The translations under genes were made by a program, and so were the position numbers. Shown here piece by piece: positions 46,365-50,778 of a DNA stretch of 64,000 nucleotides (position 1 is the stretch's first letter; the number at the start of each line of letters is the position of its first letter). Below the pieces are notes generated by a model. That model saw only the letters and a list, made by a program, of their open reading frames with translations. It searched no databases and was not told the DNA's origin. Origin of the DNA: Bacteroidota bacterium (lineage in GTDB: Bacteria > Bacteroidota > Bacteroidia > NS11-12g > UBA955); contig JAEUUL010000041.1 in NCBI GenBank assembly GCA_016787485.1, positions 1-64,000 on the forward strand. The letters run 5' to 3'.

Positions 46365-46380
46365 ATTGTCTAACAGGTAT

Positions 46381-49300
46381 ATGAAAGTTTGCAAAGACGA
46401 AACATTTTCAACAAGACGTTTTCCCATTGCCTGGTTGATAATGTTCTCTTTTTCCATCCTCTCTGGCCTTTCATTCATCACTTCCTACAATCTGCCCCGG
46501 CCAGAAACAGAAGAGTTCGAAATGGAAAGAACTCCCTTTATTACCGTACATACGCGAAGCAACGGATTACCGGTTGGAGAAGTGAATAAACTCTTCCGCG
46601 ACAAAAGCGGCATTCTCTGGCTGATGTGTCCGGAAGGTCTGGTCCGGTATGACGGAATGGGATACAGGCTTTTCAAATATGAACCGGGTGACAGTTCATC
46701 ACTGCTTGACAACTGGGTGGAAGGACTCACCGAAACTCCTGACCGCAGAATCTGGATTGCAACCGGTAAGGGAATCAATATCATCCATCCAGGGAATTCG
46801 GCCATACAGACATTCTCCTTACCAGACACCTTTAAAAAAGACATTAACCATACAGCCATTACCTGCATTTATTATGACGCGTTTACAAAAAGTATGTTTT
46901 TCGGGTTCAACAAAGGTGTTGGACAGGTCAGCACTGATGGTAAATTTATAGGATACTATGATGTGTTCGGAGCAGACAGAGGTTACCATAAAGTTACCAG
47001 CATTTTTCGGGATTCGACACAACGACTTTGGATCAGTGCACTTCACTTCGGGGTAATGCAACTGAATGAAAAAGAAAGGAAAATAAAACACATACCAACA
47101 ATTGACAACATCAGTGGAAAACCCATATTTGTGCAAGCTGTCTCTGTCTCCGAACCCATAAGGGGGATGCATTATATCAATACCTGGGGACAAGGAATAT
47201 TGAAAGTTGTAAGGCTAAAACAGGATACTATGTATGTAAAATCCCTAATCTGGGATAAAAATCCGGGGCTCGAAAATTGGTCAAACATTGCGACGGGCAC
47301 TTTTATGAAGGCCGACTCCGGCAGTCAATTGGTCTATTTTTCATCTATGGATGGCGGGTTCGGAACGCTGAATCTACACACAGACGAAATAGAGTTTATC
47401 AAATATCAAAACAACCTTGTTACAGGCAACCAACAAATATTTTGCTCTGATATACTTTACGCGAATGGTTCAATCTGGATTGCGACAAACATTGGTATGT
47501 TGCAATATTGTCCTGATAATCAATTCCTTGAAAAATTCAAATTTCCGCAGGATAACAGGTCTTTCTGGGGCGTGAATGCAAAATATATCGTTACGGACAT
47601 CATTGCTCAACCCGGGCATAAAGGGCAATACTGGATGCTAAGTGAAAAGGGGGTCATTGCCCATTGGAATCAAAACAAACATAAAATAAAATACTTTTAT
47701 CGCCCATTTCTAAACAAACCCGATTATTTTTTAGCTGCAAGAAATATTCATATTCTTACGGGACATTTTCTGCTTATCACAGACCGGGGAAATTTTGTTG
47801 TAGATAGCTCAACCATGGAAGTAAAAGAAAATCATCCATTTACTTTTTTCAAAACACATTCTGTTTCCGTAATAGAAACCATAGACAATGAGCACTGGCT
47901 GATAACCACCCCCAACCAAGGAATTTATATTTATGCCCACAGGACAAATCAAAGTCGCAAATTGTACCAGGATAACGGTGAATTGGGTTGGTTGAGGCAT
48001 TCCACATTCTTCAGGGAAAACCTTCTCATTACGGGCACAACGGGATCACTCTTACTTATTGATACCGCATCCGGGAAAAAGACAACTTCGGGGACCATCA
48101 GCATCAGACATTCAAAAGACACACTGAATGGCTTGTACAGGGCTGCTATCCAAAACAATGCAGAATGCTGGCTATCCTCGCCATACGGTTTGTTCCATTA
48201 TTCAGCACCTGACACCCAGGTCACCTCATGGCCCAATCCTGTTTATGGCAAAAACCATTGGATAACCGATGTTGTGAAAGATTTCCATGGAAACATATGG
48301 TACACAGGCCGATCCTTTCTGGGATTTGTAAATCATAAAAAATCAATGCAGTATACCTTTGACCATTCAAATGGATTGGATGAAATTCCAGTTCACAAAC
48401 TGGTCCTGAACGGTGATAGCAGTTTGTTTGTACTGGCACGTCATACACTTTACTTTAAACCCCCGTATTCAATACAACCTGAGGTTACAAAACCAGTACT
48501 TAAGCTGGAATCCATAACTATGGAAGGCAAACAAGTACAGGAAACTATCGACAATAAAATTCAGGTTCCGGCATCGGTCAAGTCCCTTGAATTGGCGTTT
48601 ATCAATCTTCGGTTCGGATCAGCCACACAATTCAGGTATCATATTATTGTCAAATCCAGCCTCGGTGATTCCCTGTACTTTAACACCAATAAAATCAGCT
48701 TCCCATTCCTTAAACCAGGTATATATAAAATATATGCTGCGGTTATCGATAAAAACAATGCATGGAATCATGCAAAATTATTTTTTGAACTGAATGTTCT
48801 GAGACCATGGTATTTAAGTTATTTGGCATATGCGCTTTACCTGGTTATTTCAGTTGGTATCGTGGCTCTTATTGTATCAATCTTAATGATTAGAAAAGAC
48901 AAAGTGTACGCTGAAAAAAGGAAAATTGAAAAAACGATTTCTGACCTTGAAATGAGCACCCTCAGAGCTCAGATAAATCCGCACTTTATATTTAACTCTC
49001 TCAATAGTATTCAGAACTACATTCTATCCAATAAGGCACTTGATGCTTCTGAGTACCTGGCCAAATTCAGCAGATTAATCCGGTTGATTTTAGAATCTTC
49101 CATGGAGAACCTTATATCTCTGGAACAGGAGAAGGAACTTCTGATCTATTACCTCGAACTGGAGAAACTGCGTACAAACAATAAATTTTCTTTTACTATT
49201 TTTGTTGATCCGGCTATTAATCCGAAGGTTAAAATACCGTCTATGTTGGCCCAACCCTATCTGGAAAATTCAATCTGGCATGGCTTTGATGGAATCAAGC

Positions 49301-49569
49301 ACCCTGGAATCATTGATATTCAGTTTCTTCTTCAACAAGGATATTGTCTGTGTATCATTCGCGACAATGGCAAGGGTCTTACCGCTGCCAGTCAGCAGAT
49401 TCACACCCCCCACAAACACAAATCAAGAGGAACAGCTATCACCAGACAGCGATTACAAATAATGAGTTCAGACATAGACAAGGCAGTTGAATTAAGGGAA
49501 GTCAAGGATTTAAAAGGACGCGTTTCTGGCACTGAAGTGAGAATTAAAATTCCGATTCATGAAAATTAA
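46381..49569 (+). CDS. Membrane sensor: Reg_prop propeller, Y_Y_Y domain and LytS-type histidine kinase
   Basis: This protein of 1062 residues has an N-terminal signal or anchor helix (IAWLIMFSFSILSGLSF) and a long extracytoplasmic part with Reg_prop repeats (GLPVGEVNKLFRDKSGILWL, RRIWIATGKGINII, QRLWISALHFGVMQL) forming two propellers, then a Y_Y_Y domain (about 715-805) and a membrane helix (about 815-840). The cytoplasmic part is a His_kinase/LytS module with His868 in QINPHFIFNSLNSIQNYI and a degenerate HATPase_c with DNGKG. It probably senses an external ligand and phosphorylates the LytTR regulator, whose gene it overlaps by 11 bases. ATG 46381 is preferred over TTG 46366. Confidence 0.92.
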   Translation: MKVCKDETFSTRRFPIAWLIMFSFSILSGLSFITSYNLPRPETEEFEMERTPFITVHTRSNGLPVGEVNKLFRDKSGILWLMCPEGLVRYDGMGYRLFKYEPGDSSSLLDNWVEGLTETPDRRIWIATGKGINIIHPGNSAIQTFSLPDTFKKDINHTAITCIYYDAFTKSMFFGFNKGVGQVSTDGKFIGYYDVFGADRGYHKVTSIFRDSTQRLWISALHFGVMQLNEKERKIKHIPTIDNISGKPIFVQAVSVSEPIRGMHYINTWGQGILKVVRLKQDTMYVKSLIWDKNPGLENWSNIATGTFMKADSGSQLVYFSSMDGGFGTLNLHTDEIEFIKYQNNLVTGNQQIFCSDILYANGSIWIATNIGMLQYCPDNQFLEKFKFPQDNRSFWGVNAKYIVTDIIAQPGHKGQYWMLSEKGVIAHWNQNKHKIKYFYRPFLNKPDYFLAARNIHILTGHFLLITDRGNFVVDSSTMEVKENHPFTFFKTHSVSVIETIDNEHWLITTPNQGIYIYAHRTNQSRKLYQDNGELGWLRHSTFFRENLLITGTTGSLLLIDTASGKKTTSGTISIRHSKDTLNGLYRAAIQNNAECWLSSPYGLFHYSAPDTQVTSWPNPVYGKNHWITDVVKDFHGNIWYTGRSFLGFVNHKKSMQYTFDHSNGLDEIPVHKLVLNGDSSLFVLARHTLYFKPPYSIQPEVTKPVLKLESITMEGKQVQETIDNKIQVPASVKSLELAFINLRFGSATQFRYHIIVKSSLGDSLYFNTNKISFPFLKPGIYKIYAAVIDKNNAWNHAKLFFELNVLRPWYLSYLAYALYLVISVGIVALIVSILMIRKDKVYAEKRKIEKTISDLEMSTLRAQINPHFIFNSLNSIQNYILSNKALDASEYLAKFSRLIRLILESSMENLISLEQEKELLIYYLELEKLRTNNKFSFTIFVDPAINPKVKIPSMLAQPYLENSIWHGFDGIKHPGIIDIQFLLQQGYCLCIIRDNGKGLTAASQQIHTPHKHKSRGTAITRQRLQIMSSDIDKAVELREVKDLKGRVSGTEVRIKIPIHEN

Positions 49570-50278
49570 AACGGTTGTAATAGATGATGAAATAAACAAC
49601 GTAGAAGCACTGTGTACATTATTGCAGTATTTACCGGATATTGAAATATCTGGTAAATTTACTGAATCTATATCCGGCTTAAGATATATAAATGAGAATC
49701 CGGTTGATTTGCTTTTCCTTGACATTCAGATGCCCGATTTAACAGGCTTTGACATTGTTGAACGGATTTCGGGTCAAAAACCGGAAATTGTATTTGTAAC
49801 TGCTCACAGTGATGCAGCAGTGAAAGCGTTCAGACTTGCAGCAACTGACTTTCTTGTCAAACCTGTTATTTTTTCTGAATTAAAAAATACCGTAGAAAGA
49901 GTCGGATTAAAACTCAGAGAAAGGAAAACTGCTACTAAATCTCAGAGAATCAGTTTTCACTCTCAATCAGGTATTGACATCGTTGATATCTCACAAATTT
50001 TATATTTTATGGGTACCGGCAGCTATACTGAAGTTTTTTTGTCCGACATGAAGAAAATAACTGTCAGTAAGAATCTTGGAGAATTTGAATCTATGTCTGC
50101 ATTGCGGAATTTTTTACGGATACACACATCATATCTGGTGAATACCTCGCATATAGAGAAATTTATAAAAGAAGATGGGGGAATGGTGATGATGAAAAAT
50201 GGCGTAATGATACCTGTTTCCCGACGTAAAAAAGAAGAACTGATAGAATGGTTAAAATCTCTTCAGGGTGAGAATTGA
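49559..50278 (+). CDS. LytTR response regulator
   Basis: This 239-residue regulator has a receiver (1-120: VVIDDEINNVEAL, phosphorylated Asp in LLFLDIQMPDLTG, T/A switch in IVFVTAHSD, Lys in LVKPV) and a LytTR DNA-binding domain (about 140-235: IVDISQILYFMGTGSYTEVFL, FLRIHTSYLVNTSHIEKF, NGVMIPVSRRKKEEL). It is the partner of the overlapping sensor. LytTR proteins bind paired direct repeats, and candidate repeats occur in the divergent region at 46054-46087. Confidence 0.93.
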   Translation: MKIKTVVIDDEINNVEALCTLLQYLPDIEISGKFTESISGLRYINENPVDLLFLDIQMPDLTGFDIVERISGQKPEIVFVTAHSDAAVKAFRLAATDFLVKPVIFSELKNTVERVGLKLRERKTATKSQRISFHSQSGIDIVDISQILYFMGTGSYTEVFLSDMKKITVSKNLGEFESMSALRNFLRIHTSYLVNTSHIEKFIKEDGGMVMMKNGVMIPVSRRKKEELIEWLKSLQGEN

Positions 50279-50324: not shown

Positions 50325-50428
50325 AAAAAAGCCCCGCTATGGCGAGGCGAATGTAGCGGACACGTAGGGATTCGAATAGCGGGGCCTTGCCCGCCACCGC
50401 GGGTTTACCCCGCGGCCCCAAACCTTCT
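50325..50428 (-). repeat. Displaced copy of tRNA-Arg 3' half plus terminator, with 39-bp insertion
   Basis: Bases 50325-50376 are identical over 52 bases to 50673-50724, which hold the tRNA-Arg acceptor and T-loop end and its terminator. Bases 50416-50428 repeat 50725-50737 (the T-stem, variable loop and anticodon-stem end). In this copy the two parts are split by 39 extra bases (50377-50415) containing the hairpin CCGCGGG-TTTA-CCCCGCGG. The 5' half of the tRNA is absent, so it is a pseudo-tRNA fragment. Confidence 0.9.
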
Positions 50429-50672
50429 ATGTATACTTTTGAATGAACTTTTTCAGGTCTTCCGTATTCAGATTCTTCAATTTTCTTTCGAGTATGATTG
50501 CCTCTTTTCTGCTCTCCTTATGCAATACAAGCACTACTCGCCAAGGCTTGTATGGAGATGTAGACTTTTCATAACCGGAATTGTGTCTGTTCAATCGGGA
50601 ATCAAAATCAGAGGTCTGGCCTATATAATACCGATTGTGTGACGTGGAATACAAAATATACACAAAATACAT
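50427..50672 (-). CDS. Small GIY-YIG nuclease-domain protein between tRNA-Arg repeats
   Basis: This 81-residue protein is a minimal GIY-YIG domain: VYIL (4-7), YYIGQT (15-20), Arg26 and Arg29 in SRLNRHNSG, and the metal-binding Glu62 in LERKLKN. All catalytic positions are present, so it could nick or cut DNA. Such small proteins (UPF0213/YhbQ-like) usually have no attached DNA-binding domain. The ATG directly follows the U-tract of the tRNA-Arg terminator and the stop overlaps the displaced tRNA fragment, so the gene fills the space between repeats. No promoter or ribosome site is visible; it may depend on read-through from the tRNA. Confidence 0.9.
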   Translation of the reverse strand: MYFVYILYSTSHNRYYIGQTSDFDSRLNRHNSGYEKSTSPYKPWRVVLVLHKESRKEAIILERKLKNLNTEDLKKFIQKYT

Positions 50673-50696
50673 AAAAAAGCCCCGCTATGGCGAGGC
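50673..50696 (-). terminator. Terminator of tRNA-Arg
   Basis: On the minus strand GCCTCGC-CATA-GCGGGGC forms a 7-bp stem with one G-U pair, followed by six T residues (plus bases 50673-50678). It ends at the base before the GIY-YIG ATG. The same hairpin recurs at 50325-50348 after the displaced fragment. Confidence 0.85.
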
Positions 50697-50737
50697 GAAT
50701 GTAGCGGACACGTAGGGATTCGAACCCCAAACCTTCT
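50673..50737 (-). repeat. Intact copy of the tRNA-Arg 3' half repeat
   Basis: This 65-base unit (terminator, acceptor 3' strand, T-arm, variable loop, end of anticodon stem) is part of the functional tRNA-Arg. It is the direct-repeat partner of 50325-50428. Confidence 0.9.
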
Positions 50738-50778
50738 GATCCGTAGTCAGATGCTCTATCCAATTGAGCTACGCGTCC
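50705..50778 (-). tRNA. tRNA-Arg (anticodon ACG)
   Basis: The cloverleaf folds fully: acceptor GGACGCG/CGTGTCC, D-stem GCTC/GAGC, anticodon stem TCTGA/TCAGA with loop CTACGGA (anticodon ACG at plus 50742-50744), variable AGGTT, T-stem TGGGG/CCCTA with loop TTCGAAT, discriminator G. CCA is not encoded. It reads CGN Arg codons after adenosine-to-inosine editing. Confidence 0.95.

Follow-up and report, generated by a model that had tools for sequence, protein, structure and literature searches.

A minimal GIY-YIG nuclease unit with a twin hairpin and a displaced tRNA part recurs beside tRNA genes of Bacteroidota

The 3' part of tRNA genes is a familiar target of tyrosine-integrase elements, which restore it, and folded ends beside a short ORF, tandem or dispersed units and non-autonomous derivatives are all known from IS200/IS605 ends, REPINs and integron cassettes. 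SegB of phages T4/T6 is a free-standing GIY-YIG homing endonuclease (PMC13096335, PMC2988022); it is reported to cut tRNA genes, preferring RAWTSGAAC, and to multiply tRNA-segB units in tandem through homologous recombination (PMC13096335). By our reading, the reverse complement of this motif, GTTCSAWTY, would fit the tRNA T-loop. In mitochondria of fungi, mobile ORFs at Allomyces atp6 and at Glomus atp6, atp9, cox2 and nad3 swap the 3' end of a gene, and in the consulted part of that work the endonuclease ORF carries a replacement 3' part and rebuilds the invaded gene, the native 3' part being left downstream (PMC3630166).

The locus described here lies in the window, by which we mean the whole 64,000-nucleotide stretch of Bacteroidota DNA that was analysed. 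Its features, in the order in which they are read on the minus strand, are as follows.

50704-50778, minus: intact tRNA-Arg(ACG) (ARAGORN; Rfam RF00005 tRNA, 66.5 bits)
50717-50725, minus: GTTCGAATC in the T-arm of the intact tRNA-Arg, from a pattern scan; fits the reverse complement of the SegB motif RAWTSGAAC
50673-50703, minus: 3' trailer and terminator of the intact tRNA-Arg; TTTTTT directly before the ATG at 50672
50427-50672, minus: GIY-YIG nuclease gene, 81 codons, catalytic domain only (PF01541, E 2.3e-15)
50416-50428, minus: displaced copy of tRNA positions 42-54 (variable loop and 5' T-stem strand), 100% repeat of 50725-50737
50397-50415, minus: hairpin A, CCGCGGG-GTAAA-CCCGCGG, a conserved covarying helix
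50377-50396, minus: hairpin B, TGGCGGG-CAAGGC-CCCGCTA, a conserved covarying helix
50325-50376, minus: displaced T-loop, 3' T-stem strand, acceptor 3' strand, trailer and terminator (52 nt), 100% repeat of 50673-50724

The arrangement in the original prediction, an intact tRNA-Arg(ACG) with its terminator, then an 81-codon GIY-YIG gene, then a second tRNA 3' part with its terminator (ending at 50325), was borne out, and the repeats of 52 and 13 nt are 100% identical; an exact 52-nt repeat at 348 bp is far above chance. Equally correct were the placing of the ATG against the terminator U-tract (TTTTTT before 50672) and of the stop codon within the repeat, the last two bases of TAG falling inside the 13 nt. 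The second copy had been taken for a tRNA 3' half, and both of its pieces are indeed exact, but an insert at the T-loop border had been missed: 39 bp (50377-50415), absent from the intact tRNA, split the copy between its 5' T-stem strand (TGGGG, 50416-50420) and its T-loop. This insert consists of two adjacent hairpins, so that the second copy is more than a simple tRNA half. Projected onto the intact gene, the place of the hairpins in the displaced copy predicts a cut or insertion point at 50724^50725, the border of T-stem and T-loop. A DNA search of the genome's own assembly found this tRNA-Arg(ACG) as a single complete copy, so the inserting unit had to leave the tRNA working.

The GIY-YIG gene is the sole ORF of the unit, and neither an HUH transposase nor a tyrosine integrase is present within it; no integrase or other recombinase was found in the unit or among the nearby genes, which encode a response regulator, a histidine kinase and a metzincin-like protein. 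Upstream on the opposite strand, at 46366-50278 of the window, a histidine kinase with a regulator propeller and a LytTR response regulator form an ordinary two-component pair. Rfam matches in the window were to tRNA only, with no self-splicing intron around the gene, and the GIY-YIG protein scored far below the cut-off of TIGR01453, used as a test for group I intron endonucleases. The unit is like the integrative elements of tRNA 3' ends in its target and its restoration, but it has no integrase and measures about 350 bp. With IS200/IS605 elements, REPINs and integron cassettes it shares a folded unit boundary by a short ORF, repeated units and non-autonomous derivatives, whereas here HUH transposase and integrase are lacking and the flanks are tRNA-derived.

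The encoded protein is little more than its domain. The PF01541 match covers residues 1-70 of 81, and no separate DNA-binding module was found beyond the 81-residue catalytic domain. Y5, G18, R26, H30 and E62 are invariant in 14 diverse family members, and the conserved Tyr, Arg and Glu of the GIY-YIG domain are present. The nearest structural relatives by sequence are UPF0213 proteins and SLX1 (PDB 1zg2, 1ywl, 7wme, 6seh; E about 4e-8 for SLX1), which have the same small GIY-YIG domain, SLX1 being larger and structure-specific. The gene is under purifying selection, with a median dN/dS of ~0.11 over 53 pairs among relatives, not all of them independent. A search of viral contigs with the window's profile returned no relatives.

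Three further GIY-YIG matches occur in the same genome, beside tRNA-Gly(GCC), beside tRNA-Cys(GCA) and at a contig end with no tRNA detected, and a family profile, built mostly from tRNA-adjacent members, matches 189 of 296 sampled Bacteroidota genomes with up to 18 copies each. A sample was also drawn by protein only, giving 79 loci from named genomes of Bacteroidota and Chlorobiota, 75 of them judgeable; it is biased to the window's clade, since a 14-sequence alignment gave no conserved stretch for the scan and a five-sequence alignment of that clade was used. An intact tRNA lay within 200 nt in 62 of the 75 loci (same strand in 61, median 46 nt, 18 anticodons), with a partial tRNA copy usually beyond the nuclease. 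A tRNA was equally close in 6 of 1654 background windows from the same loci away from the gene, and the association of nuclease and tRNA is not chance. In most of the remaining loci the tRNA stood behind another unit, or the unit stood beside a degenerate or missing tRNA. Five loci (L166, L162, L140, L148, L122) keep T-loop, terminator, nuclease and hairpins, and adjoin a degenerate tRNA or none; among five others (L077, L182, L185, L213, L220) some have a complete second tRNA (Ser, Asp, Val) flanking the element or close to it, a hint that entire tRNA genes may be duplicated by units as well. Across Bacteroidota, similar nuclease genes adjoin tRNA genes in their hundreds, in what looks like an undescribed mobile-element family; our search of the open-access literature, with subscription papers and preprints outside its scope, found no prior description of the element.

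The unit comes in two forms. In the 3' form, that of the window, the intact tRNA is followed by the nuclease and the displaced 3' part; in the mirror-image 5' form, a displaced 5' part is followed by the nuclease and then the intact tRNA. Tandem arrays are frequent, with 8-9 units in one genome (G108) and five at tRNA-Leu, tRNA-Asp and tRNA-Met loci elsewhere. In this the unit is like SegB, a GIY-YIG nuclease beside tRNA genes of many isotypes with tandem tRNA-nuclease repeats; SegB, however, is phage-borne, and the consulted sections of its description mention neither a displaced tRNA half nor a hairpin module nor derivatives devoid of the nuclease (PMC13096335, PMC2988022). GIY lineages track the tRNA: on a nuclease tree of about 80 columns, many forks of which are weak, we counted 61 anticodon changes against 97.0 ± 2.3 after shuffling, and for the 62 loci with host codes clustering by amino-acid identity (19 vs 41.6) was tighter than by host family (31 vs 43.2). 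Among candidates for a recent move of a GIY gene from one isotype to another, no informative pair exceeded ~74% nucleotide identity, pairs at 99.5% identity being tandem copies mis-assigned to a neighbouring tRNA; consequently the exact moving piece was not seen. In Draconibacterium sediminis two related nucleases of one genome (L169 and L191) sit at tRNA-Gly and tRNA-Asp and have similar hairpins; the target may have changed within one host line.

Empty sites were sought in relatives of other elements than the window's own. At the tRNA-Met site that carries a five-unit array in genome G225, the upstream flank had a match in 78 of 81 congeners. All 29 sites that were fetched were empty, each with a single intact tRNA and its terminator and with neither a nuclease nor a partial copy; the downstream gene was collinear in several. 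This is the single-copy state foreseen for relatives lacking the gene. Since the terminators in the G225 array are unlike those of the congeners, a unit perhaps arrives with its own. Of 30 congeners compared at a tRNA-Val site related to that of F. dankookense, 20 were empty, 6 had two intact tRNA-Val genes, 1 had a nuclease of another clade, 2 had GIY-less repeats and 1 was unjudgeable. Orthologous sites in congeners are, at these two loci, mostly empty. Nuclease genes lying apart from tRNA repeats, or empty sites already carrying the duplicated part, either of which would make the link a coincidence, were not encountered as a rule; a few elements lack an intact tRNA, and a few congeners have partial tRNA copies with no nuclease, which we read as derivatives and not as pre-existing duplications.

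Such data bear on the idea that the nuclease is a passive passenger, a small protein with a host role that hitchhikes by tRNA genes, the partial copies and arrays arising from ordinary tandem duplication and unequal crossing-over. Repeats of 50-100 bp do favour unequal crossing-over, copy number does vary among arrays, and the nearest solved structures are UPF0213 proteins with no assigned role. Patchy presence, mostly empty orthologous sites and association with many unrelated tRNAs, with isotype tracking across host families, speak against it, as do the precise insertion point of the hairpins and their co-evolution with the nuclease described below, and we regard it as improbable.

In the window's GIY clade the displaced part reads 5' T-stem strand, hairpin A, hairpin B, T-loop, 3' T-stem strand, acceptor 3' strand and terminator. 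Over 19 sequences, standard pairs fill 97.5% of cells against 75.6 ± 1.4% after shuffling, double-changed cells number 81 against 25.6 ± 4.0, and 14 of 19 pairs show compensatory change. In controls with the structure slid along the sequence, pairing falls to 31-47%, a comparison favoured by the fact that the structure was partly derived from the tested 19 sequences, although this does not account for the double changes. With a covariance model (R1), the module is detected beside the nuclease gene at 61 of 79 loci, of which at least 42 lay outside the set used to build it; the model scores 61.8 bits at 50365-50420, the window's sequence being included in it. Single-sequence folding of the window copy gives a z of about -0.9. 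The twin hairpin has no match in Rfam, the window and 7 related loci yielding tRNA alone. The covariance model does not match other GIY clades, which have different hairpins, at the D-loop, anticodon arm or T-loop. Four loci (L041, L042, L043, L058), whose tRNAs are for different amino acids, are 5'-form remnants with G+C-rich palindromes, e.g., CCTGCCTGCCGGCAGGCAGG, at an identical D-loop point. We also considered the hairpins as chance REP-like insertions and, for the window's clade, rejected this on their precise position, covariation and co-evolution.

The loop-proximal stem bases fall into two classes, GAG/CTC and GAC/GTC, and both hairpins of an element are always of one class (37 CC, 16 GG, 0 mixed; Fisher 7e-14). 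Mapped on the nuclease tree, hairpin class changes 2 times, compared with 14.2 ± 1.3 after shuffling and 12.3 ± 1.4 when shuffling was confined to one amino acid at a time (0/500 in each case), the shuffles controlling for amino acid but not separately for host relatedness. One of the classes occurs in both forms and at Arg, Ser, His, Leu and Met tRNAs. Across isotypes, hairpins and nuclease co-evolve, the stem class keeping to the nuclease tree, and the hairpins appear to be the nuclease's specific partner.

Such a partnership invites two other readings of how the unit moves. Perhaps the GIY-YIG protein binds the two hairpins, whether as a cruciform or as single-stranded DNA that has folded, and cuts beside them, at hairpin B ^ TTCGA and T-stem ^ TTCGA, so that the unit moves as a piece ending in them, like IS200/IS605 ends or integron cassettes with attC. 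The hairpins lie exactly at the unit boundary, covary, keep to one class per element, follow the nuclease tree and are retained in GIY-less units, and the structure-specific nuclease SLX1, whose kind acts on branched DNA, is among the nearest characterised structural relatives. Set against this, no excision product or circle was seen, a nearby recombinase gene is absent and, to our knowledge, GIY-YIG enzymes are hydrolases with no strand-transfer activity; we think this reading unlikely. Alternatively, a transcript of the GIY gene, twin hairpin and tRNA part might act like the omegaRNA of TnpB, with the hairpins as scaffold and the tRNA part as guide. The order in 3'-type units (ORF, covarying hairpins, then target-identical sequence), the need of a bare catalytic domain for an outside source of specificity and the way hairpin class follows the protein regardless of isotype would all fit. 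In 5'-type units, however, the hairpins are upstream of the gene, GIY lineages track isotype too, and we know of no RNA-guided GIY-YIG enzyme that would serve as precedent, which leaves RNA guidance very improbable.

Units without the nuclease occur as well. The window's own genome has two tandem 199-bp units lacking it after tRNA-Pro(TGG) (G000:C36:145276-145530, L195), with hairpins nearly identical to the window's; these are possibly non-autonomous relatives. Further GIY-less units, their hairpins kept, stand at tRNA-Ala, tRNA-Asp, tRNA-Pro and tRNA-Val loci. At L232:2486-3620 (G406) tRNA-Val is followed by at least six GIY-less 188-bp units, in every one of which a pseudo-tRNA encloses the hairpin TTCCGATTTTTCATCGGAA.

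The reading that we prefer, with a probability of roughly 60%, is a minimal selfish element that targets tRNA genes, would spread by a nuclease-made break and recombinational copying, and would rebuild the tRNA. The GIY-YIG protein would break a tRNA loop, here at the T-stem/T-loop border, in an element-free copy; repair against an element-bearing copy, anchored at one end in the tRNA 5' part and at the other in the displaced 3' part and terminator, would insert a unit running from T-loop to terminator, GIY gene, T-stem strand and twin hairpin. The tRNA would thereby be rebuilt and its old 3' part pushed downstream. Computation supports the anatomy and its recurrence, the empty sites and arrays, selection on the gene, the covarying and co-evolving hairpins and the GIY-less derivatives, while the cut site, the route of repair and the function of the hairpins are inferred. 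The base before TTCGA, set by hairpin B, is A in 29 of 29 parsed displaced copies compared with G in the intact tRNA, and this change probably stops recutting of the displaced copy. The intact tRNA might be recut, with recombination then giving tandem arrays; because it keeps the presumed target, self-cutting must be tolerated or avoided.

In outline, this agrees with the selfish unit first proposed, one nuclease gene and a replacement tRNA part with no integrase, an outline upheld by the 18 anticodons, the empty sites and purifying selection; the hairpins, the 5'-half version, the tandem arrays and the GIY-less relatives had no place in it. As in free-standing homing ORFs, there is a GIY-YIG domain, there are empty alleles (at other sites) and the invaded gene is rebuilt by element-carried sequence; the separate DNA-binding module expected of such an ORF is absent. 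Simple homing, however, does not explain the covariation of the hairpins and their co-evolution with the nuclease, nor the colonising of a new isotype with that isotype's tRNA part duplicated. The fungal mobile ORFs differ in invading mitochondrial protein genes, mostly with LAGLIDADG enzymes (one is GIY-YIG), and the part of their description consulted mentions no twin hairpin (PMC3630166). Neither parallel, SegB nor the fungal ORFs, accounts for co-evolving hairpins. Tentatively, the unit might be a new kind of mobile element, one whose minimal GIY-YIG nuclease owes its specificity to a co-evolving module of two hairpins (as DNA or RNA) together with a tRNA part that it has captured, and which carries itself and units lacking the nuclease between tRNAs with no recombinase, transposase or intron, though we would not yet count this as probable.

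Small GIY-YIG genes, usually annotated as that alone in many Bacteroidota, gain from this work a likely role, as selfish elements on essential tRNA genes that they rebuild. The co-evolution of hairpin and nuclease offers a testable case in which structure may direct a catalytic domain that has no DNA-binding module, and the partial tRNAs and GIY-less arrays account for odd tRNA fragments in these genomes.
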